NCBI GenBank assembly: GCA_024278975.1
Contig: JAJRSD010000040.1
Span: 62,001 to 126,000 of the forward strand
Reading direction: 5' to 3'
DNA length: 64,000 bases
Origin: Bacteroidota bacterium
GTDB lineage: Bacteria > Bacteroidota > Bacteroidia > Bacteroidales > Prolixibacteraceae
Shown: in pieces, positions 7,363 through 35,265 of the stretch
How positions within the stretch are numbered: position 1 is the first letter of the stretch
Layout of the letters: every line of letters begins with the position of its first letter
Notes under the pieces: generated by a model
Told to the model about the DNA's origin: nothing
What the model saw: only the letters and a program-made list of their open reading frames with translations
Databases searched by the model: none
Made by a program: the position numbers and the translations under genes

Positions 7363-8055
7363 ATGTATAAATTGATTTACATATCTCTTTTGGTTTTTGT
7401 TTTATTTTCATGTAATGCAAATAATTCAATTGAAATAGAACAGGCGGCTACAAGCGTTCTTATCCGCACAATTGGCGAAAATGAAGCCTCTAAGTTTGAA
7501 TTTAAGTATGTTAAAACAGAGGCTTACGATAGCTATTCAATTGAGGTAGAAAATAACAAAGTTTATATCTCAGGTAGTTCGGCAACAGCACTTTGCCGTG
7601 GAGCTTACGATTATTTGCGTAACGAATGTCATTCTATAATTAGCTGGTCGGGTAATAGAATAAATGTTCCGGAGCATTTACCGGAAGTTAATAAAACGGT
7701 GAAATCACCCTTTAAATACAGGTATTATATGAATACCGTAACCCATGGATATACAACGCCCTATTGGGATTGGAATCGATGGGAAAAAGAACTTGACTGG
7801 ATGGCCATGCACGGCATGAATATGCCTTTAATTGCCGGAGCACACGAAGCAATATTGTATCGCGTTTTCAGAGAAATAGGCCTGACAGAAGATGAAACTT
7901 TAAACTATTTCTCGGGACCGGCACACTTTCCATGGAACCGTATGGGGAATATAGGTGGTTGGGATGGCCCGCCACCGGTATCCTTCTTTAACAAACAAAT
8001 TGAACTGACTCATAAGATGCTAAACCGGATGAGAGAATTGCAGATGTTTTGGTAA
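7363..8055 (+). pseudogene. Truncated alpha-N-acetylglucosaminidase (GH89, NAGLU-like)
   Basis: 230 residues covering a lipoprotein signal (VLFSC), the NAGLU N-terminal alpha/beta domain (YSIEVENNKVYISGSSATALCRGAYDYLR) and only the start of the catalytic barrel (YYMNTVTHGYTTPYWDWNRW, ELDWMAMHGMNMPL, AHFPWNRMGNIGGWDGP). GH89 enzymes are usually around 700 residues or more. Here homology ends at MRELQM, just where the family continues into the next barrel strand, and a stop follows at 8053-8055. The remaining catalytic residues are missing and no GH89-like continuation appears in any frame before the convergent regulator gene 46 bp away. A deletion is the simplest explanation, and the product is probably inactive. 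Confidence 0.85.
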
Positions 8056-8101: not shown

Positions 8102-11100
8102 CTATTTTTTTTGCATCGATTTAAACTCCTCAATATATTCGCTTGGTAACATTCCAAACTCCGATTTAAAACATTTTGTAAAATAGGAAGCACTGTTAAA
8201 ACCTACTTGATAAACAATTTCTGAAACTGTAAATTTCTCGGTTTTTAAAAGCTGAGCCGATTTTTTAAGACGGAGCGAACGGATAAAATGATTTATTGAT
8301 AAACCTGAAAGTGATTTCACTTTTCGGTATAACTGGTCCTGACTTATTTGCAAAACATCAACAAGACCTTGAACCGAAAATTCGGGTTCCATAATATGTT
8401 TATCAATAATTTCAATAATATTTTGCATAAATTTTTCGTCAACCGAAGTGGGACTTATTTTGCTTGCCGGCAAATCAATAATCGATAGTTTCTTTTTAAG
8501 AGTTTGCCTTTGTTCGATAGTTTTTTTAATTCTTGTTAGAAGAAGCTGGCTATTGAATGGCTTTTCTATATATGCCTCAGCACCACCCTCGAAACCTGCA
8601 ATACGCGACTCCAATGAATTTTTAGCAGTAAGTAAAATTATTGGAATATGAGAAGTGTTAAGATTTGATTTTAATTGTTTGCAAACTTCAATTCCATCAA
8701 TTCCGTCCATCATTATATCGCAAATAACCAATTCCGGGTTTTTTCTTTTTGCAATTTTCAACCCCTCTTCTCCCGAAGAAGCTTGTATCACATCATAATC
8801 ATCAAACAGTAACTCTTCAATATATTGTCGCATGTCAGAATTATCATCGACAACTAAAATTTGCTGTTTGTTTTTATTTTCAGACAGGTCAGAATTATTT
8901 TCTAAATGTTGAAAACTGAGGGCTGTATTTTGTTCAACGTTAGGATACAACTCATAATTACCTGAATTTTGTTTTACGGGGAAATGAATGATGAATTCTG
9001 TTCCTCTTTTTTCAACACTATTTACATGTATTTCTGCATCATGCATTTCAACATATTTTTTCACCAACGCTAATCCAATTCCAGTTCCCTGATTTTTGTT
9101 TAATCCTTTAAATTGAAAGAATCGTTTAAAAATTGAATGAATCTCCTTATTCGGTATGCCAATGCCTGTATCTTTAACTAATAGTGTAATCTTTTTTTCT
9201 CTCCGAATAACTTCAACAAACACGTTTCCGTACAGAGGTGTGAATTTTAGTGCATTCGATAAAAGATTATATAATATAGATTCTAATTTCTCGGGGTCAG
9301 CAATCAAAAAAACGTCATCTTCAGGTAATTCAATCTCAAAGTCAATATGTTTTTTGTCAGCCTGTTCTTTAAACTGATTGAAAATATTTTGGAATAAATT
9401 AGAAATATTAATTTGTTTCAGTTCCAATGTAATGTTTTGAGTATCAATTTTTCTAAAATCAAGGATTTGGGTAATTAATTTTAAAAGCAATTCAGAATTC
9501 TTATAAATTCGTAATAACTTATTTTTTTGATTTATATTTATAGTATCGTCATTTATTAAATCTTCGACAGGTCCTTTTATTAATGTCAACGGTGTGCGGA
9601 TATCATGCGAAATGTTGGTGAAAATTGCTAGTTTTTGTTCATAAAAGTCATGGTCTCTTTTGTGTTCTATCATTTCCATTTTTAATTTCTGTTTCACTCT
9701 AACTCTTTCTCTTATCTCTTTCAGAATAATAACGAGGATTATCACAATAATTATAAAATATCCGAAAATGGCAATGTTCGAAAACCACCAGGCTTTCTGT
9801 ATAATAAAAACTACTTTCCGCATTTCGGGATTCCAATTTTGATTTGAGCTTGCAACTTTTACAAGTAACTCGTATTTGCCAGATGATAAGTTTGTGAAAG
9901 TTGCCAAAGCAGATGTTCCCACTCTATTATTCCAGCCTTGCTCAATTCCGGTTAGCTTGTAACTAATAATACTTTTATTAGATATTCCGGGATTAATTGC
10001 TCTGATATCAACTGAAAAGGAGTTGCAGAAATATGGCAAAGAGATTTTATCATAATAATTTATATTTTTTTCGAGTACTACATGGTTTTTAATTTTTTCG
10101 AATGGTGCTACCTCTTTGTCGAATATACGTAACGATGATAAAAATATAGTTGGATATCCGGCTTTTGATTCGACAGTATCGAGATTAATTTTTAACAATC
10201 CATTGTCTGAACATGCTAAAAGCGAGTTGCTGGTTTTATCGTAAATAATATTATTTAGCGAAGTATTTCCAAATATTGTTGTTAGTTTATTTGTTTGAGT
10301 ATTCAGCCGAAATAGCCCGACGAATGTGGCAATCCATAATTTGCCGGAATTATCTTCCGTCATAAATTTGCAGTTTATTCCATTAAGTATTGAGATTTTT
10401 TTAGGTGTATCTTCCTTATCGTCAATCACTCCCAAACCATTTCCTGTCAGAATCCAAATAGTACCGTTTTTAGCTTGATATAAACTGTTTATATTAATCT
10501 TTTCGTCTGTATTACTAAAGTGCGAGAAATATCTGTTTTCTAATATTACACCGGGTTCTTTTATTTTAACTTTGTAAAGACCATATAAATGAGACCCTAT
10601 CCACATCGAACTATCTCCTCTTTCGGGCAAAACAAATCTAACATCGGGGTTTTGTTCTTTCCCCATCTCGAAATTTACTAACGATTGTTTTGTGAGTTTG
10701 CCTGTGCTATACGAATAGCTATACAGTCCGTTGTAAAATCCGCCTATCCAAAGCGTCCCTTTGTTATCGTTTGCAATAGAGTAGATACGTTCGTCTTTCA
10801 ATTCAGTAAATTGATTCTCTAAATTAAGGTCTCTTGTCAATGTTTTGTTATCAAGTACTCTAATACCATTTCCCCAAGTACCAATAAATAGTCTTTTTGA
10901 TATTGTGTCGTTGTATAAACTTTTAATCGATTGAATATTTTCATTTTTAATTACAGAATAAAAATTGGCATCATTAATACTGTACGAACAAAGTCCATTT
11001 CCGTGCGATCCAATCCAATATTGTCCTTGTTTACCTTTGTTTATACTCCAAAGGATATTGGAGTGTATATCGTTTTCATTTTTGCTATCGTAAATATAGT

Positions 11101-12133
11101 TGTATGGTTTATTTTTAAGGTTTAACATGTTTGCGCCGCCAAACCAGGTTCCTATCCACAGATTTTCATTAGTATCGATAAATAGGGAGATAATATAATT
11201 GGAGTTAATACTATTTTTCTTTACCGGATTATACTTAAAATGTTTTAGCCGTATCTCTTTCTTACCATATTCTAAATTATATAACCCATTATTCTGAGTG
11301 CCTATCCAATAACTATTATTCTCATGCTTTATTATTGAGCGAATTTGGCTCTCCTTCAAATTCTTTTTTATTAACTCGTTTGTACAATCGGCTTTATTAT
11401 CGAAGAAATAGAAAAGTCCTTTGTCGGTTCCAAGTAATAAAGAATCGCCTCTGTTCGAGTAACAGTATATGTGATTTATTTGAGCGATGGAAGAACTTTT
11501 TTCTATGAAATAGTTGTTTTCAAATCGTCTGATACTAAAAATAATATCGGTGTTGGTACCAATATAAATTTGTTCTTTGTATTCGAAGAAAGAGTGGATA
11601 CTTGAAGCACCATCGCAAGTTATTTCATCACATTTAATTATTTTTTCAGAAATATCAGGGCTAATCAAATCTTCAAGTTTAACAAGGTATATTTCTCCTG
11701 TAAAGCAACCTATCCAAATAAAACCATTTTTATCGGTATGAAAAACTGAAACCGATGGATTAATACTACTCCCTTTTAGTTCAAGGTTTACTTTTGATAT
11801 TTTTTCGGTTACTTTATCCAGAATAAAGATTCCCTTATCCATAGTACCAATAAGGATTTTGTTCTTGCCAATAAGCTGAATATCAAATATTTTATTACTT
11901 AGTTCCGAAAACCTGTCAGAGTTGTATGTTTTAAATTCTGTTCCATCAAAAGTTGAAAGCCCGTTATTTGTACAGAAATAAAGTATCCCATCTTTGTCTT
12001 GGTAAATATGGTCGACATTATTAAAAGCCAATCCATCTTTAGTAGTCAATTGTTGGAAAGCATACTGGTTTGCCACAACATTACCGTAAGACATAAAAAC
12101 TAACAACAGTCCTGAAAAAATTGCTCGTATCAT
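8102..12133 (-). CDS. Hybrid two-component system sensor/regulator (HTCS) of the PUL
   Basis: A 1343-residue one-protein signalling system. The N-terminal signal peptide is followed by a periplasmic double beta-propeller with many Reg_prop repeats (for example LWIGTWFGG, YWIGSHGNGL, LWIGGFYNGLYSY) and a Y_Y_Y domain (LTGIEQGWNNR). A membrane helix (WFSNIAIFGYFIIIVIILV) leads to a HisKA domain with phospho-accepting His in ISHDIRTPLTLI (about residue 842), an HATPase_c domain (NLLSNALKFTP, KDTGIGIPNKE), a receiver with phospho-Asp in VICDIMMDG (about 1139) and a C-terminal AraC-type HTH (from about 1245). It senses an oligosaccharide from the target glycan and activates the PUL. It is transcribed divergently from susC and shares the repeat-rich 198-bp region between them. 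Confidence 0.96.
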   Translation of the reverse strand: MIRAIFSGLLLVFMSYGNVVANQYAFQQLTTKDGLAFNNVDHIYQDKDGILYFCTNNGLSTFDGTEFKTYNSDRFSELSNKIFDIQLIGKNKILIGTMDKGIFILDKVTEKISKVNLELKGSSINPSVSVFHTDKNGFIWIGCFTGEIYLVKLEDLISPDISEKIIKCDEITCDGASSIHSFFEYKEQIYIGTNTDIIFSIRRFENNYFIEKSSSIAQINHIYCYSNRGDSLLLGTDKGLFYFFDNKADCTNELIKKNLKESQIRSIIKHENNSYWIGTQNNGLYNLEYGKKEIRLKHFKYNPVKKNSINSNYIISLFIDTNENLWIGTWFGGANMLNLKNKPYNYIYDSKNENDIHSNILWSINKGKQGQYWIGSHGNGLCSYSINDANFYSVIKNENIQSIKSLYNDTISKRLFIGTWGNGIRVLDNKTLTRDLNLENQFTELKDERIYSIANDNKGTLWIGGFYNGLYSYSYSTGKLTKQSLVNFEMGKEQNPDVRFVLPERGDSSMWIGSHLYGLYKVKIKEPGVILENRYFSHFSNTDEKININSLYQAKNGTIWILTGNGLGVIDDKEDTPKKISILNGINCKFMTEDNSGKLWIATFVGLFRLNTQTNKLTTIFGNTSLNNIIYDKTSNSLLACSDNGLLKINLDTVESKAGYPTIFLSSLRIFDKEVAPFEKIKNHVVLEKNINYYDKISLPYFCNSFSVDIRAINPGISNKSIISYKLTGIEQGWNNRVGTSALATFTNLSSGKYELLVKVASSNQNWNPEMRKVVFIIQKAWWFSNIAIFGYFIIIVIILVIILKEIRERVRVKQKLKMEMIEHKRDHDFYEQKLAIFTNISHDIRTPLTLIKGPVEDLINDDTININQKNKLLRIYKNSELLLKLITQILDFRKIDTQNITLELKQINISNLFQNIFNQFKEQADKKHIDFEIELPEDDVFLIADPEKLESILYNLLSNALKFTPLYGNVFVEVIRREKKITLLVKDTGIGIPNKEIHSIFKRFFQFKGLNKNQGTGIGLALVKKYVEMHDAEIHVNSVEKRGTEFIIHFPVKQNSGNYELYPNVEQNTALSFQHLENNSDLSENKNKQQILVVDDNSDMRQYIEELLFDDYDVIQASSGEEGLKIAKRKNPELVICDIMMDGIDGIEVCKQLKSNLNTSHIPIILLTAKNSLESRIAGFEGGAEAYIEKPFNSQLLLTRIKKTIEQRQTLKKKLSIIDLPASKISPTSVDEKFMQNIIEIIDKHIMEPEFSVQGLVDVLQISQDQLYRKVKSLSGLSINHFIRSLRLKKSAQLLKTEKFTVSEIVYQVGFNSASYFTKCFKSEFGMLPSEYIEEFKSMQKK

Positions 12134-12138
12134 TTTAG

Positions 12139-12190
12139 CATCTCTTTTTATACTAAATTAACATCTCTTTTCATAAAAAACCTACATCTC
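12139..12190. promoter_or_regulatory. Three CATCTC direct repeats at 23-bp period in the HTCS 5' region
   Basis: CATCTC occurs at 12139-12144, 12162-12167 and 12185-12190, exactly 23 bp apart; the first two extend to CATCTCTTTT. They begin 6 bp from the HTCS start codon and run into the CCGAA array. The regular spacing of about two helical turns suggests a repeated protein-binding site. Autoregulation by the HTCS is inference. Confidence 0.5.
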
Positions 12191-12263
12191 CGAAAAAGTA
12201 CTATAAAAATCCCGAATTTGTTTCATTGTCCCGAAAAAGTATTACACAACACCCGAATTAGTT
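12190..12263. promoter_or_regulatory. Four-site CCGAA direct-repeat array, candidate HTCS operator
   Basis: The core CCGAA occurs at 12190, 12212, 12231 and 12253. Sites 1 and 3 share CCGAAAAAGTA; sites 2 and 4 share CCCGAATT followed by T or A and then GTT. The pairs repeat with an exact 41-bp period. Alternating half-sites two helical turns apart are what an AraC-type HTH dimer would bind. The array ends 68 bp before the susC start codon, next to the -7 element. Confidence 0.6.
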
Positions 12264-12287
12264 GTTTTATTTAAATCTTTAATGAAA

Positions 12288-12295
12288 TAATTTTG
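12288..12295 (+). promoter_or_regulatory. Bacteroidota -7 promoter element for susC
   Basis: TAATTTTG matches the TAnnTTTG consensus exactly and lies 36 bp before the susC ATG. No strong -33 box is placed at the ideal distance, which suits an activator-dependent promoter fed by the upstream repeats. Confidence 0.55.
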
Positions 12296-12331: not shown

Positions 12332-15300
12332 ATGAAAAATCTACTGTTTTTTATTTCATTTTTATTATTGACCGTTTCGGCAATGGCACAACCCATTACA
12401 ATTAAGGGTACTGTTTCCGACAAAAGCGGGTCACCCATACCGGGTGTGAATGTTGTTATTAAGGGAACAACAACGGGCACAATAACAGATATTGATGGTA
12501 AATACTCCATCGATGTAAGTTCCAACAACGATGCTTTAGTGATATCGTTTATTGGTATGAAAACTCATGAAATTTCTGTTGGCGGACAAACAGAAATTAG
12601 TGTTACGATGGAGAGCGATGTAATTGGTCTCGAAGAGGTAATTGCTATTGGTTATGGCACAACTTCTAAAAAAGATCTTACCGGTTCGGTAGCTAGTGTT
12701 CGGGTTGATAATACTCCTTTAGTGAACCTTCCAAATCTGGGAGCTTTGCAAATTTTACAGGGAACAACTGCCGGAGTAAACATTGGTGCCGTTACAAGTG
12801 CAGGTGGAACACCTGGGCTATTAATTCGTGGGCAAAATTCAATTACAGGAAGCAACTCACCTTTAATTGTACTTGATGGTATGATATTTACCGGAGGTTG
12901 GAACGAAATTAATACCAACGACATCTCTTCGATTGATGTTTTGAAAGATGCCAGTGCCGCAGCTATTTATGGTTCTCGTTCGGCAAATGGCGTTATTATT
13001 GTTACAACTAAACGTGGAAAAGCTGGAAAACCGACAGTTAATATTAATTCTTATTGGGGGGTTCAAGACTGGACCCGTGTTCCTGAAATGAGAGAAGGAG
13101 AAGATTTTCTTGACTGGAGACGCGATAACCTGAAACTCACCGGAGTTGAAGACCTAAGCATTGAAAATATATTAGGACCACGAGAGTTAGAAGCATACAA
13201 TGCTGGTCACCAAATGAATTGGATGGAAGAGGTAACTCAATTTGCACCAATCCAGAATTATCAGGCAAGTATTTCTGGTAAAACTGACAGAACTAACTAT
13301 TATGTCTCTGGTAATTATGTTGACCAAAAAGGTATTCTTGATGATGACAATTTTACTAAAGCAAGTATCAATGCAAAGCTTGAAAACACCATTACCGACT
13401 GGTTGTCGTACGGAATAGATATGAATTATACTGAGAATGATTATTCAGGTACTTCGCCCAGTATGTATATGGCAACCTGGTACACCCCATACAGTTATAA
13501 ATGGGTTGAAGGTTACGAGGATGAAGTGCTGCAAAGATACCCGACTACAAGTTTTCTTTATAATCCATATACCGGATTTTATACCGATGATTTGAATAAG
13601 AGCTGGAGTTTTAGCGGAAAAGGATTCGTAAATGTGAAAATACCTTTTATTGAAGGACTGAACTACAAATTTAATTACTCTAAGCGAAAAGGAGTAGGAC
13701 AAAGAGGATCGTTCACGCATGAAATGCGTTATGCAAATACATGGAAACCGGAGGATATTGAGAATCCTACAAAGTTTTTAAATAGTACAAATGGTTATAA
13801 ACAAACAAGTACTTCTGAACGTTGGGTAATGGATAATTTATTAACCTATAAAAGATCATTCGACAAACATAGTGTTGATGTACTTGTAGGTTATACTCGC
13901 GACCAATATATCGGAGAGACTGTTAGATTCGCTGGCAGTGATTTTTCAGCTTTGGGAACTTCGGTGCTGGGTTATAATGGATTGAACCTAGCCGACCCGG
14001 CAAAAAAGAGTGGAAGTACTTCTGTATATGAATATAGTAATATTGGTTATATTGGAAGAGCAAATTACAGCTACAATGGAAAATACCATGCTACAGTAAG
14101 CTTCAGGAGAGACGGATATTCTGCTTTTGCCGAAGGAAATAAATTTGGTAATTTTCCTGGAGCATCGGTAGCCTGGACAATTAGTGAAGAAAGTTTCATA
14201 AAAGACAATATTTCTTCGCTCGATTATTTAAAACTACGTGCATCGTATGGTAAAAACGGAAACCAGGGAATTAGTCCTTACGCAACAACAGCAGGAGTAG
14301 CATTTGGAACTACTATTTTCGGAGAAACTTCTTTCAACTATTCATATCCTTCATCTCTTTCAAATAAAGAGCTTTCTTGGGAAACAACAGCAGCTATGAA
14401 CTTTGGGCTTAACTTTTCAATATTTGGTGGCCGCCTTAGCGGTGATATTGACATATATAAAAGTTCAACAACCGACCAGTTGCTTACAAGAAATTTACCT
14501 ATAATGACCGGATATGGAAGTGTTCCTACCAATATCGGGCAAGTTGATAATAAAGGATTCGAATTGTCGCTAAACAGTATAAATATACAGTCATCCGACG
14601 GATTTAAATGGCAAACAGGTGTGCGATTTTGGCTGAATCGTAATAAACTGGTTTCATTGTACGGATTAGATGCTAACGAAGACGGAGTGGAGGACAATGA
14701 TATTGGCAGTAATTGGTTTATTGGCGAATCTTTAGGGGTTGTCTATAATTATACCACCGATGGTATTGTTCAGGTCGGAGACACAGAATACCTTGAAACA
14801 TACGGAGGAAAACCCGGCGATGTGAAATTTGTTGATATCAATGGTAAAGATGAGGATGGCAACCTAACCGGAAAACCCGATGGTAAGATAAATGCCGACG
14901 ACCGTTCCATTATTGGAAACAGTAATCCAAATTTCAGGATGAATATTTCGAATACCATAAACTATAAAAGCTTTGAGCTTTATTTCGATTTTAACATAGT
15001 TGCAGGAGGTGGTAAGGAGAATTATTACATGGCTGGTAATCAGAGAGCATATTTGGGATTAGTTCCAATTACAGGAAATTGGTTAAACCAAGACTACTGG
15101 ACTGAAGAAAAACCAAGCAATACCATTCCTCGTCCTGATTATCAAAATTCACACGGATATGGATTCTATCAATCAAGAGCTTTTGCACGTTTGGCAAATC
15201 TGACGTTGAGTTACACCTTTAATAATAAAGTAAAAGAGACTCTTAAAGTTGGAGATTTAAGAGTTTTTGTAAGCGGTAAAAACCTATTGACATTTACAAA

Positions 15301-15394
15301 CTGGGTAGGTCTCGATCCTGAAAATGCAGGTCAAATAGGATCATCAAGCCCGGTAATACGTACATTCACAACAGGAATAAATCTTAGTTTTTAA
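12332..15394 (+). CDS. susC: SusC/RagA-family TonB-linked outer membrane receptor
   Basis: A 1020-residue TonB-dependent porin that imports oligosaccharides through the outer membrane. An SPI signal peptide (to about AMAQ, residue 20) is followed by a carboxypeptidase-D-like regulatory domain (IKGTVSDKSGSPIPGVNVVIKG), a Ton-box-like segment (EEVIAIGYGTTSKKDLTGSV) and the plug domain with PLIVLDGM, DVLKDASAAAIYGSRSANGV. The rest is a 22-strand-type barrel ending in the aromatic residue Phe (TTGINLSF). It has the usual length for the family. It opens the right PUL wing, 18 bp before susD, downstream of the HTCS operator array. The symbol denotes family membership; substrate specificity is unknown. 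Confidence 0.97.
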   Translation: MKNLLFFISFLLLTVSAMAQPITIKGTVSDKSGSPIPGVNVVIKGTTTGTITDIDGKYSIDVSSNNDALVISFIGMKTHEISVGGQTEISVTMESDVIGLEEVIAIGYGTTSKKDLTGSVASVRVDNTPLVNLPNLGALQILQGTTAGVNIGAVTSAGGTPGLLIRGQNSITGSNSPLIVLDGMIFTGGWNEINTNDISSIDVLKDASAAAIYGSRSANGVIIVTTKRGKAGKPTVNINSYWGVQDWTRVPEMREGEDFLDWRRDNLKLTGVEDLSIENILGPRELEAYNAGHQMNWMEEVTQFAPIQNYQASISGKTDRTNYYVSGNYVDQKGILDDDNFTKASINAKLENTITDWLSYGIDMNYTENDYSGTSPSMYMATWYTPYSYKWVEGYEDEVLQRYPTTSFLYNPYTGFYTDDLNKSWSFSGKGFVNVKIPFIEGLNYKFNYSKRKGVGQRGSFTHEMRYANTWKPEDIENPTKFLNSTNGYKQTSTSERWVMDNLLTYKRSFDKHSVDVLVGYTRDQYIGETVRFAGSDFSALGTSVLGYNGLNLADPAKKSGSTSVYEYSNIGYIGRANYSYNGKYHATVSFRRDGYSAFAEGNKFGNFPGASVAWTISEESFIKDNISSLDYLKLRASYGKNGNQGISPYATTAGVAFGTTIFGETSFNYSYPSSLSNKELSWETTAAMNFGLNFSIFGGRLSGDIDIYKSSTTDQLLTRNLPIMTGYGSVPTNIGQVDNKGFELSLNSINIQSSDGFKWQTGVRFWLNRNKLVSLYGLDANEDGVEDNDIGSNWFIGESLGVVYNYTTDGIVQVGDTEYLETYGGKPGDVKFVDINGKDEDGNLTGKPDGKINADDRSIIGNSNPNFRMNISNTINYKSFELYFDFNIVAGGGKENYYMAGNQRAYLGLVPITGNWLNQDYWTEEKPSNTIPRPDYQNSHGYGFYQSRAFARLANLTLSYTFNNKVKETLKVGDLRVFVSGKNLLTFTNWVGLDPENAGQIGSSSPVIRTFTTGINLSF

Positions 15395-15412: not shown

Positions 15413-17050
15413 ATGAAATTATATAAAAATATATTAATTGTAATAGCAGCTGGTTTCTTCCTACTGACCGGCTGTGAGTCGGATACAGACTTTTTATTCG
15501 AAGAAAGGAAGGATGCACTAACAACAGACAACGCATTCTTAAGTAAGTCTCAGTTCGAATCGTTGTTGGGTTCAAATTACAGAACCTTACAATCGATGTA
15601 TAACTCGGGAGATGGAGCTGCTAATATCTGGCAAAATGGTTATGGTATGGATGCAATGCACTATGCCTTAGCAGAGGATGTGGCATACAACGACTGGACT
15701 AAAGTCAACGAATTTGAAGGCTTTAACAGAAAATGGTATAACAATAACTTTCAAATGATTAAATATGCCAATACAGTTATCGATGCAGCTCAAAAAGAAG
15801 GCGTTAAATGGAACAGTGAAACCGAAAAAAATGAAATTATTGCAGAAGGCCGGTTTTTCAGAGCTTGGTCGTATCGTAATTTAGTTAACATTTATGGTGG
15901 AATGCCTATTATTGATAAACCTGTAACAGAACCTAAAGTTGATTTTGAAAGAAATACCAGAGAAGAGTGTTATTTATTTATTAAAGAAGATCTGGAATTT
16001 GCAAAATCTAATTTGCCAATAACTACTGCTACTCCCGGTAAAATTGTTAGAGCGGCAGCCGACCATTTATTGGCTGAAATTAATATCTGCTTAAAAGATT
16101 GGGATGGCGCAATTGCAGCAGCAACAAGAGTTATTGATGGTACCGATGGTGATTATAAATTAATGACGGAACGTTTTGGACTTCGTGCCGATGAGCCAAA
16201 CAAAACGGTTTACTGGGATTTATTTCGTATGGGAAATCATAATTATCAAACCGGAAACAAAGAAGCAATTTGGGTTGCCCAATTTGAATACAATTTGCCA
16301 GGTGGAACTGTTATGTATGGACGTCCAACCATAGAACGTGCAATGTGGAATCGGTTTTGGCTATTTAAAAAAGCAGGTTATAGTGGTACTGCAACCGATT
16401 CAACCGGACGTGGAGTTGCTTTTTTAAGAGGTACCAATCTGGTTAATTATGGCATTTGGAAAAATACGGATGGTGATATTCGAAATATAGAATCAAGTGT
16501 TAAACGTAAATATTACTTTGCAGATGATGTAACAGTTGATGGAAACTCTTATTCTAAGGGTGAACTGATCCCTAAATCATTCCTTACAGTAAAAGAAGAC
16601 TCCATGTGGTACGTATATCCAAATTTTCAAAAATTTGGAACTGACAAGCATAAAGATGGCAGACCAGACAATGGATTTGTTCCCGATTTTTATGTAATGC
16701 GTTTAGCCGGAACTTATCTGTTAAGAGCCGAAGCATATCTTGGAAAAGGTGATAAAGGCAAAGCAGCTGATGACATAAATGTAATTAAAACCCGAGCTTT
16801 GGCACCTTTAATTTCTGCCTCTGACGTGACTATTGATTATATCCTCGACGAACGCTTACGCGAACTTTATGGCGAAGAATTCAGAACTTTAACGCTCGGC
16901 AGGTTGGGATTAATATATGATCGTACCAAACGTTTTGGATATTCACTTTCTCAAAGTACAATTCAAGAACACAATAACTTGTTCCCAATTCCTCAGTCGG
17001 CTATCGACCGGAATGTGGGTTCGGAATACGCGCAAAACCCAGGATATTAG
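15413..17050 (+). CDS. susD: SusD/RagB-family surface glycan-binding lipoprotein
   Basis: A 545-residue lipoprotein (LLTGC, Cys21) forming the lid over the SusC barrel. It shows family traits: an N-terminal stretch with many aromatic residues (NIWQNGYGMDAMHYA), TPR-like helices (EGRFFRAWSYRNLVNIYGGMPII), a large variable binding region and the conserved end (LRAEAYLGKGD, ILDERLRELYGEEFR, NLFPIPQSAIDRN). It starts 18 bp after susC and would be co-transcribed with it. It is followed by a stable hairpin, which may set relative expression of downstream genes. Confidence 0.97.
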   Translation: MKLYKNILIVIAAGFFLLTGCESDTDFLFEERKDALTTDNAFLSKSQFESLLGSNYRTLQSMYNSGDGAANIWQNGYGMDAMHYALAEDVAYNDWTKVNEFEGFNRKWYNNNFQMIKYANTVIDAAQKEGVKWNSETEKNEIIAEGRFFRAWSYRNLVNIYGGMPIIDKPVTEPKVDFERNTREECYLFIKEDLEFAKSNLPITTATPGKIVRAAADHLLAEINICLKDWDGAIAAATRVIDGTDGDYKLMTERFGLRADEPNKTVYWDLFRMGNHNYQTGNKEAIWVAQFEYNLPGGTVMYGRPTIERAMWNRFWLFKKAGYSGTATDSTGRGVAFLRGTNLVNYGIWKNTDGDIRNIESSVKRKYYFADDVTVDGNSYSKGELIPKSFLTVKEDSMWYVYPNFQKFGTDKHKDGRPDNGFVPDFYVMRLAGTYLLRAEAYLGKGDKGKAADDINVIKTRALAPLISASDVTIDYILDERLRELYGEEFRTLTLGRLGLIYDRTKRFGYSLSQSTIQEHNNLFPIPQSAIDRNVGSEYAQNPGY

Positions 17051-22573: not shown

Positions 22574-24907
22574 ATGAAAATATTAACGCTGTTCTGCCTA
22601 ACCTTGCTAATAATGTTTGTGAGTTGTAGTCAGTCCAAAAAAGAACAGATTGATAAAAGCTATCCCAATAAATATAATGTTATTTGGGAAAGTCCGTCAA
22701 CAGATGCATCGGGACAGATGCCACTGGGCAATGGTGACATAGCAGCCGGAGTGTATGCAATAGAGAATGGCGACCTGTATTTGTTACTCTCAAAAAACGA
22801 TGCCTTTACTCAACATGGAGATATTTTTAAAACAGGGCGTGTGCGTGTTACACTTTCTCCTAACCCTTTTGCTAACGGAAATTCTTTTAAACAAACTCTT
22901 GACCTAAAGACAGGCTCTATACTCATTGAAGCTAATGGTGTGAAGTTACGTATTTGGGCAGATGCCAACCGATCGGTTTACCATGTGTAAGTGGATTCTC
23001 CGGATGAGATTACAGTTAGCGCAACTCCGGAATTTTGGGAGCGGTTTGAGACCTGTAATTCAGATATCAACAAGGAAAATCCAAATGAAAATGAACCTGT
23101 TCAGGATGTTCTGATGGAACGTAACGGGAATATTTTATGGTACTATGCCGTAGGAGACAATAGCGATTATGCTGCTGATATGAAATACTACGGTGTTGAA
23201 GAAAGGATGTCTGAGTTCTCAGATCCTTATAAATACAATACTTTTGGTAACCTTCTGGAAAGCCCTGATTTGGTTTTAGAAAGTGGAGCATTGTCAGGTA
23301 AAGGCAAATCTTTTGATATTCGTATCCATGCACTAACGAAACAAACACCTGAAGTACAGGACTGGGTGGAATCGATTGAAAAACAGGCTTCGCATCCAAT
23401 AGATTTAAAAACAGATTGGCAGGCTCATTGCCAGTGGTGGTCCGAATTTTGGAACCGGAGTTGGATTACGGTAACTGATAATACATTGCCAATTGAGGAT
23501 AGGGAAAAATTTAATGGTGAAGGTTATTCCAATAAACGGACAGAAAAAGATGGTGGTGCATTGGTAGCTCAAAGCTACAATGTGTTTCGTTACCTGATGG
23601 CTTGCCAAAGTCGAGGACGTGTTCAAACCAAGTTTAATGGAGGTCTGTTTACCCAACCCTTGCGTTGTAACGAGAGCAACAAATGGAAAAAAGTAGTCAC
23701 TTTACAGGAAGATGGAACATTGCTGAGCCATGAAGATGACCGCGATTGGGGACGCCGTTTTACCTATCAGAACCAACGGTTACTTTACTGGCCATTGGTA
23801 ATGAGCGGAGATTTTGACCTGATGCAACCATTTTTTAATTATTATAGTAATTTACTACCTGTACGTAAGGCAATTACAAAGGAATGGTTTGGGCATGAAG
23901 GTGCTTATTACCGCGAGAATATTGAACCTACAGGAGCCGAACGGGATTGTGGGAGAGATGGGAAACCACCCAAAACAAAGTCTGGAGAAAACATGGGAGA
24001 TGGATATTATCATAGCTATTATTTTACCTGTGGGCTTGAGACAGTGGCAATGATGATAGAATATGTGAAATACTCTGAGGACACAGATTTTCGGGACACT
24101 GTATTGGTTCCATTTGCCCGTGAGGTATTATTGTTTTTTGATAAACACTACCAAAGGGATGATAGCGGGAAAATTCATCTGGATCCGGCCATGGTACTGG
24201 AGACCTGGTGGATTGCTGTAAACCCAGCTCCGGATATTGCCGGGTTGCAGTTTTGTCTTGACGAATTGCTAGCTTTAAAAACAGGAACAGAAGAAGATAT
24301 CGTTAATTGGCAACAGTTTCGATCTGAAATACCTTCTGTTTCTCTTCTTGATATAAATGGACGTAAGGCTATTGCTCCTGCCCAAAAATATGAGATGAAA
24401 AAAAATGCGGAAAATGGTGAACTCTATCCAGTCTTCCCATTCCGTCTTTTTGGACTTGGACAAGGGACAGAGGATATTGTGGCTGCTACAATGGATAACC
24501 GGACTGCTGTAAATAGCTTTGGTTATAAATGCTGGACTCAGGATCAAATTCATTGGGCTTATGCCGGGAATGCAATAGAAGCACAAGATGGCTTGGTTCA
24601 TCGTTTTCGCAATGCTTCAATTCAATGTCGTTTTCCTCTTTACGGAAGTCATGGCCCTGATTCATGCCCCGATTTTGACCACTTTGGATCGGGAAATACT
24701 GCTCTTCAGCGTATGTTGGTACAAGAGGTTGGAGATTCGATTTTACTTCTTCCGGCCTGGCCTGCCGATTGGGATACCAATTTTAAGTTGCACTTATCTA
24801 AAAATACAGTAATAACAGGAATGGTAATAGGAGGCAAACTTACAGAATGGACTATTGAACCACTATCCCGCAAAAAAGATGTAAGGGTTTATCAGCCTCA
24901 GCTTTAG
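22574..24907 (+). pseudogene. DUF5703 (toroid glycosidase-like) lipoprotein gene interrupted by an in-frame TAA
   Basis: One reading frame of 778 codons is split by a TAA at 22988-22990 (codon 139). Upstream are a lipobox (MFVSC) and the DUF5703 N-terminal signature (SPSTDASGQMPLGNGDIAAGVYA, with LLLSKNDAF). Immediately downstream, in the same frame, the protein continues (DSPDEITVSATPEFWERFE) through the helical catalytic-like domain (QSYNVFRYLMACQSRG, KFNGGLFTQ, SYYFTCGLETVAMMIEY) to a normal end. The second part (22991-24907) could be begun at a GTG right after the stop, but would lack a signal peptide. A single nonsense substitution (for example from GAA) or a sequence error explains it. 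The intact protein would act on the PUL glycan. Confidence 0.8.
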
Positions 24908-34548: not shown

Positions 34549-35265
34549 ATGAAAACAAAATGCCTTGTTATTGACGATGAGCCCCTCGCGCGTGATTTAA
34601 TGCGAAGCCACATCGAAAAATTAGAAAACTTTGAAATTGTTGCTGAATGTGGCGATGCTATGAAAGCCCTCCAGGAACTTCGAAACTACAAAGTTGATTT
34701 AATGTTTATGGATATTCAAATGCCCCAAATTACCGGAATTGAATTTTTAAAAACACTAAAACACCCTCCTAAAGTAATTATTACAACTGCCTATCGCGAA
34801 TATGCGCTCGATGGTTTTGAGCTTGATGTAGTTGATTATCTGCTTAAACCAATAACTTTTGAACGGTTTTTAAAATCGATTAACAAGTATTATCAGATAT
34901 CGCAAGATGAGATAAAAAATATTATTCCGGTTGCATCGGCAGCAAAATCCAAAACTGCATTTATTTATGTAAAGGAAAATAAGAAAGTTATAAAACTGCA
35001 CCTAAACGAAATTTTGTACGTGGAGGGGTTGAGCGAGTATGTTAAAATTCACACAACTAAGAAAAGAATTGTGACCAAAACCAGCATGACCAATATGCAA
35101 AACAAACTTCCGGAAACTGGTTTTATGCGAATACATAAATCCTTTATCGTTTCGATGGACAGAATTGAAGCTTTTACTGCGCACAGCATCGAAGTTCCCG
35201 GGAAGGAATTGCCAATTGGCAGAAGTTATAAAAGTTCGGTTTTGAAAGCACTGAAATATAATTAG
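34549..35265 (+). CDS. LytTR-family response regulator
   Basis: 238 residues. The receiver domain (1-120) has the acidic pair in VIDDEP, phospho-acceptor Asp55 in MFMDIQMPQ, the Thr in IITTAYREYAL and Lys in YLLKPITFERF. The LytTR DNA-binding domain (about 140-235) has FIYVKENKKVIKLHLNEILYVEGLSEYVKIHT and FMRIHKSFIVSMDRIEAF. It would be phosphorylated by the kinase encoded at 32313 and bind direct repeats. It follows the pseudokinase gene after 135 bp. Confidence 0.95.
   Translation: MKTKCLVIDDEPLARDLMRSHIEKLENFEIVAECGDAMKALQELRNYKVDLMFMDIQMPQITGIEFLKTLKHPPKVIITTAYREYALDGFELDVVDYLLKPITFERFLKSINKYYQISQDEIKNIIPVASAAKSKTAFIYVKENKKVIKLHLNEILYVEGLSEYVKIHTTKKRIVTKTSMTNMQNKLPETGFMRIHKSFIVSMDRIEAFTAHSIEVPGKELPIGRSYKSSVLKALKYN

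Follow-up and report, generated by a model that had tools for sequence, protein, structure and literature searches.

Gene content and repeats of the HTCS–susC region

We analyzed a 64,000-nt window from a Bacteroidota bacterium (Prolixibacteraceae; GCA_024278975.1, contig JAJRSD010000040.1, positions 62,001–126,000, forward strand), whose genome comprises 4,651,077 bases in 115 contigs. The window encodes a hybrid two-component regulator (HTCS) transcribed divergently from a susC/susD pair (Table 1). In the single chain of this protein, P0001, the Pfam domains follow the order propeller, Y_Y_Y, HisKA, HATPase, receiver and HTH_18, the canonical HTCS set, and by-eye reading of the translation placed SHIP in the receiver, matching the S/CHIP motif, which is described for the receiver face toward the DNA-binding domain in HTCSs (PMC11253607). 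Downstream of susC lie susD and genes for a GH2 enzyme, a beta-helix protein and a DUF5703/GH95-like protein, and the neighbors on the HTCS side encode an alpha-L-fucosidase, a GlcNAc 2-epimerase and a sugar transporter. By gene content, the locus looks like an ordinary polysaccharide utilization locus. An alpha-N-acetylglucosaminidase frame (7363–8055, plus strand), convergent with the HTCS gene and stopping 46 bp before its end, encodes only 230 aa, which span the N-terminal domain and positions 1–109 of the 336-position TIM-barrel model; it looks truncated, and the rest of the enzyme was absent from ten further window frames scanned. A DUF5703_N match is split between two adjoining frames on the plus strand (22574–22990, model positions 1–105; 22991–24907, model positions 136–287), which share a reading frame with a stop codon between them and are possibly a broken gene.

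The HTCS start (12133) and susC (12332) are separated by 198 bp with a GC content of 24%, and this gap contains two repeat arrays. Four CCGAA copies begin at 12190, 12212, 12231 and 12253, and three CATCTC copies, 23 bp apart, at 12139, 12162 and 12185, exactly where a first-pass annotation had placed them. The pairing of CCGAA sites 1/3 and 2/4 with a 41-bp period, also claimed there, was borne out by a 33-nt direct repeat with 82% identity (12190–12222 versus 12231–12263), and the third CATCTC does abut the first CCGAA, with one base (12190) common to both. The order is non-random, as had been asserted, since none of 500 dinucleotide shuffles of the gap matched the 41-bp repeat. With both strands scanned, the CCGAA layout and the CATCTC layout each occur once in the window. 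No further CCGA array was found in the window, the best three-site chain elsewhere scoring 17.3 versus 49.0 here. The half-sites conform to the consensus CCGAwwnnGTnnyA with steps of 22, 19 and 22 bp, and the array shows the form expected of an HTCS operator, a direct repeat 5' of a linked susC-type locus with about 21 bp between sites.

Table 1. Coordinates of genes and predicted elements in the window
Feature	Position	Strand	Evidence
HTCS (hybrid two-component regulator)	8102..12133	-	propeller sensor, Y_Y_Y, HisKA, HATPase, receiver (SHIP), AraC-type HTH
CATCTC 23-bp tandem repeat, ~2.3 copies, in HTCS leader	12135..12190	.	alignment, TRF, shuffles
HTCS half-site 1 (CCGAAAAAGT...), predicted	12190..12203	+	repeat match, conservation
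HTCS half-site 2 (CCGAATTTGT...), predicted	12212..12225	+	repeat match, conservation
HTCS half-site 3 (CCGAAAAAGT...), predicted	12231..12244	+	repeat match, conservation
HTCS half-site 4 (CCGAATTAGT...), predicted; adjoins presumed -33 region	12253..12266	+	repeat match, conservation
TAATTTTG, exact Bacteroidota -7 consensus TAnnTTTG, 57 bp from the first base of site 3	12288..12295	+	match to PMC7366714 consensus
SusC-like TonB-dependent transporter, presumed regulated gene	12332..15394	+	annotation
SusD-like protein, presumed same operon as susC	15413..17050	+	annotation

Conservation of the CCGAA array within one HTCS clade

P0001 was searched against 61 genomes of relatives (its own included), 393 from the order, 71 from the family to which genome G273 belongs, 395 from the phylum and 140 from its own family, the order and phylum sets being samples. 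Its own entry aside, matches with E ≤ 1e-170 were L010, L058, L061, L062, L063, L064, L111 and L112. Identity to the window HTCS was 34–41% for the six array-bearing relatives and 48% for L061, which is partial; L064 had 31% in the alignment and 35% in the search. Within the same genus, the best relative by E-value was L010, with 35% identity along almost its entire length, and a contig scan for closer orthologues returned four distant loci. L061 begins at a contig end without upstream DNA and was excluded from the array count.

The four half-sites of the window were made into a matrix, and upstream regions were searched with it for chains of half-sites, steps of 19–23 bp being allowed. Chains directed toward the divergent gene were found at L058 (steps 21/19), L010 (21/20/21), L062 (21/20) and L063 (21/20), and none of 1000 shuffles was as good for two-, three- or four-site chains. 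The held-out relatives L111 (21/20/21) and L112 (21/20), fetched later, likewise gave 0/1000. In the upstream regions of relatives, whose comparison the first-pass annotation had proposed, the CCGAA array was kept in 6/6 clade relatives with readable upstream DNA, and, the window included, 7/7 such loci had arrays of three to four sites. A first step of 21–22 bp was followed by one of 19–20 bp, the first being the longer in 7/7 loci, and sites 1 and 3 were 41 bp apart in six loci and 40 bp in L058. The window and L010 have a strong site 4, L111 has a weaker one, and in L058, L062, L063 and L112 it is weak or absent. On the target side, the first gene resembles susC in the window, L010, L062 and L111; inspection by eye gave a GH2-like gene for L058, a beta-helix-like gene for L063 and a gene of another kind for L112.

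A 17-site matrix built from five loci (window, L058, L010, L062 and L063) gave best three-site scores of 36.2–49.0 in these source loci, 29.3 and 31.3 in the held-out L111/L112 loci, and at most 11.5, on either strand, in the upstream regions of 25 less related HTCSs, a control set that includes near-copies (e.g. L013–L015) and regions without a divergent neighbor. The array is therefore conserved with orthologous regulators (7/7 clade members versus 0/25 controls). L064, which lies outside the clade despite its E-value of 1e-182, had no array, 182, 450 and 242 of 1000 shuffles being as good. Among the 17 pooled half-sites, positions 1–4 were C, C, G and A in 16, 15, 17 and 15, position 9 was G in 16, position 10 was T in 14, and position 14 was A in 15; because the sites had been selected for their similarity, the counts serve as a description of the motif and are no test of it.

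In a maximum-likelihood tree of 32 HTCSs, with six rows left out, the eight array-clade members formed one group with 100/100 support and L064 fell outside. The array follows this clade across two families. At the start of the first recognition helix (SQD, GQD, SHD, SPD or THD), the third residue is D in 8/8 clade members and in 0/30 other aligned HTCSs, and we infer that this clade-specific D helps to read CCGA.

The pair CCGAANNNGT-N12-CCGAANNNGT had two mismatch-free matches in the 4,651,077-base genome, both in this gap; with up to two mismatches there were 36 matches versus 19 for the reversed control, and the looser matches are therefore mostly noise. A genome scan for paired sites had been suggested in the first-pass annotation. 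As a regulon marker, the 11-mer CCGAAAAAGTA was rejected as unspecific (15 exact genome matches versus 7 for the reversed control). A strict two-site pattern was rejected as a cross-genome marker: across five genomes it matched 18 times and its reversed control 14 times. Five of the 18 were at HTCS arrays (three in the own genome, one in G273 and one in G455), and none at those of G032 and G456; in two of the five genomes the HTCS locus goes undetected by this pattern because half-sites vary. A strict three-site pattern matched in 25 of 393 genomes of the order, this locus among them. Many of the other matches among those listed were exact tandem repeats and the remainder isolated; the one inspected, L092, lies in coding DNA. 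The array-bearing G273 was missed by this pattern because its third site varies.

Promoter geometry and a putative HTCS operator

The sigma-ABfr consensus is described as TAnnTTTG (-7) and TTTG (-33) (PMC7366714). A TAnnTT lies 56–57 bp from the first base of site 3 in 7/7 loci (57 in the window, L058 and L062; 56 in L010, L063, L111 and L112); this distance rule was set after viewing the first five loci, and L111 and L112 then fitted. Among 10,000 shuffle sets, the best sharing of TAnnTT within a 2-bp bin was 4/7 (12 sets), and 7/7 occurred in none. The full TAnnTTTG is exact in the window, L058 and L112, with one mismatch in L111 and two each in L010, L062 and L063. A single exact offset was common to only three of the first five loci, a level that 23 of 5000 shuffle sets equaled. 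The -33 region of the window has only TTG, at 12262, versus the TTTG consensus, and no common -33 box was found in the relatives examined.

From the computed sites, conservation, spacing, promoter distance and clade specificity, we consider it highly probable that the CCGAA array is the operator by which the divergent HTCS activates the susC/susD operon. Each CCGAwwnnGTnnyA would be the site of one AraC-type DNA-binding domain, and four such domains would bind head-to-tail on the same helix face about two turns apart (22, 19 and 22 bp), presumably in a phosphorylation-dependent manner. The simplest pairing would be two HTCS dimers placed 41 bp, or four turns, apart. The last half-site ends beside the -33 region, so that the domain bound there could contact RNA polymerase. 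Activator–RNA polymerase contact of this kind constitutes class II activation. The first-pass annotation had likewise read both arrays as sites of an AraC-type HTH along one DNA face; its CCGAA part is well supported (6/6 relatives, the clade test and the -7-like spacing), and its CATCTC part is not supported, as set out below.

The working operator could instead comprise half-sites 3 and 4 only, with sites 1 and 2 a recent, functionless 41-bp duplication. The 82% identity of the two 33-nt units is what a duplication would give, and published HTCS motifs are described with two sites (PMC3878776), but sites 1, 2 and 3 are present in 7/7 loci whose proteins are 34–41% identical, the long–short step order is kept, and it is site 4 that fades, making this reading unlikely. 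We regard it as more improbable still that another AraC-type or other regulator, rather than the adjacent HTCS, binds the array: the window does encode further regulators, e.g. a LytTR response regulator at 34549–35265, but the array keeps to a single HTCS clade in two families, and the motifs of two other HTCS groups (see below) follow the HTCS DNA-binding domain.

The CATCTC array had tentatively been taken for a separate, autoregulatory set of sites, a proposal that is compatible with the operator reading of the CCGAA array. Situated in the HTCS leader, it is a tandem repeat beyond chance: 12135–12157 and 12158–12180 are 83% identical over 23 nt, TRF gave period 23 with 2.3 copies at 12139–12190, and 0/1000 dinucleotide shuffles of 12134–12189 reached its level. 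However, CATCTC was absent from the HTCS-proximal stretch of 6/6 relatives, it bears no likeness to CCGAwwnnGT, the 23-mer has only two other matches in the genome, with three mismatches each, and the 23-bp period with extended identity resembles a local duplication. A conserved second operator was rejected on the absence in relatives and the 23-mer matches, a second HTCS operator for autoregulation is very improbable, and we read the array as a separate, lineage-specific 23-bp duplication in the HTCS leader. On the minus strand of 12131–12189, each of the three GAGATG copies contains an ATG from which a mini-frame one to three codons long (M, MLI or MLK) starts, and the last mini-frame and the HTCS start codon overlap as ATGA; these may be chance in such AT-rich DNA. 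That the repeats of the gap as a whole are chance products of its 24% GC sequence is a negligible prospect given 0/500 and 0/1000 shuffles and conservation that includes two held-out relatives.

Other HTCS groups and relation to known operators

Shift-by-shift autocorrelation of 13 other HTCS regions gave no clear period (mean z ≤ 0.98, at shift 19). A three-copy statistic, which is more sensitive than autocorrelation, was applied to 13 further regions and gave 0/300 shuffles for L020 and 1/300 each for L026 and L030. The wider survey covered 80 fetched and 29 earlier regions, of which 3 and 4, respectively, were unusable, leaving 102, or 89 without near-copies. At p ≤ 0.05, 8 of the 32 divergent regions had signals at steps 19–23, versus 2, 2 and 2 at steps 14–18, 24–28 and 29–33; the corresponding counts were 4 versus 1, 5 and 2 for 42 co-directional regions, and 3 versus 0, 1 and 0 for 15 regions without a near neighbor frame. 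No three-copy signal at p ≤ 0.05 was present in 74 of the 89 surveyed regions, and one top match, L165, was a simple repeat.

Two groups with other motifs emerged. CAATAnTGAAA occurs three times in L020 and L137 with steps of 19/20, the DNA-binding domains being 78% identical and the last site being followed by an exact TAnnTTTG at 31 and 34 bp. TGCAACA occurs three times in L030, L143 and L122 (p = 0, 0.015 and 0.05) with steps of 19/21; here the DNA-binding domains are 65–70% identical, and an exact TAnnTTTG follows the last site by 41–42 bp in 3/3. Between the three motif groups, the DNA-binding domains are 34–51% identical, and in the two non-CCGA groups the half-site motif goes with DNA-binding-domain similarity. 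Predicted three-site operators with group-specific motifs thus extend beyond the CCGA clade.

AraC/XylS activators bind head-to-tail half-sites about two turns apart that end at the promoter. The window array resembles their sites in its tandem head-to-tail half-sites next to a promoter, although an HTCS, unlike these soluble activators, is a membrane-held kinase-regulator fusion. A general statement on AraC-family proteins and direct repeats is given in PMC9723621. For Bacteroides thetaiotaomicron, HTCS motifs were predicted as direct repeats of two sites about 21 bp apart (Ravcheev et al. 2013, PMC3878776), and the motif groups were predicted to follow the DNA-binding-domain tree (PMC3878776). 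That HTCS operators are ~21-bp direct repeats whose motif groups follow the DNA-binding domains is thus already in the literature as a prediction. The array described here is like those motifs in lying, as direct repeats ~21 bp apart, in promoters of HTCS-linked susC loci. It departs from them as described, and from a model of two sites per operator, in having three to four sites in 7/7 loci, steps that alternate and a -7-like element at a nearly constant distance. For BT4124, BT4663 and BT0366, fragments comprising the receiver and AraC-type domain were gel-shifted on the susC-side promoter (PMC11253607, PMC5061871); the window HTCS shares the SHIP motif with them. In the literature searched, published supplementary site lists aside, no three- or four-site HTCS operator is described, and the predicted Bacteroides set is the only set of HTCS operators. 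As far as that literature shows, the CCGA motif with its clade, the three to four alternating-step sites and the near-constant promoter distance, all predicted, appear to be new.

More tentatively, and with the balance somewhat against it, HTCS operators in this order may often consist of three to four head-to-tail half-sites with alternating two-turn steps at a set distance from the -7 element, such that induction would need at least two membrane-held HTCS dimers on one promoter and the half-site sequence could be deduced from the DNA-binding domain. In B. thetaiotaomicron, no other type of regulator of polysaccharide utilization loci is described as being as abundant as the HTCSs (PMC6874557). 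With a motif tracking a DNA-binding-domain clade at a set promoter distance, HTCSs could be assigned to their targets from sequence, and the presence of three to four half-sites makes the assembly of membrane-held HTCS dimers on DNA a question that footprinting could answer.
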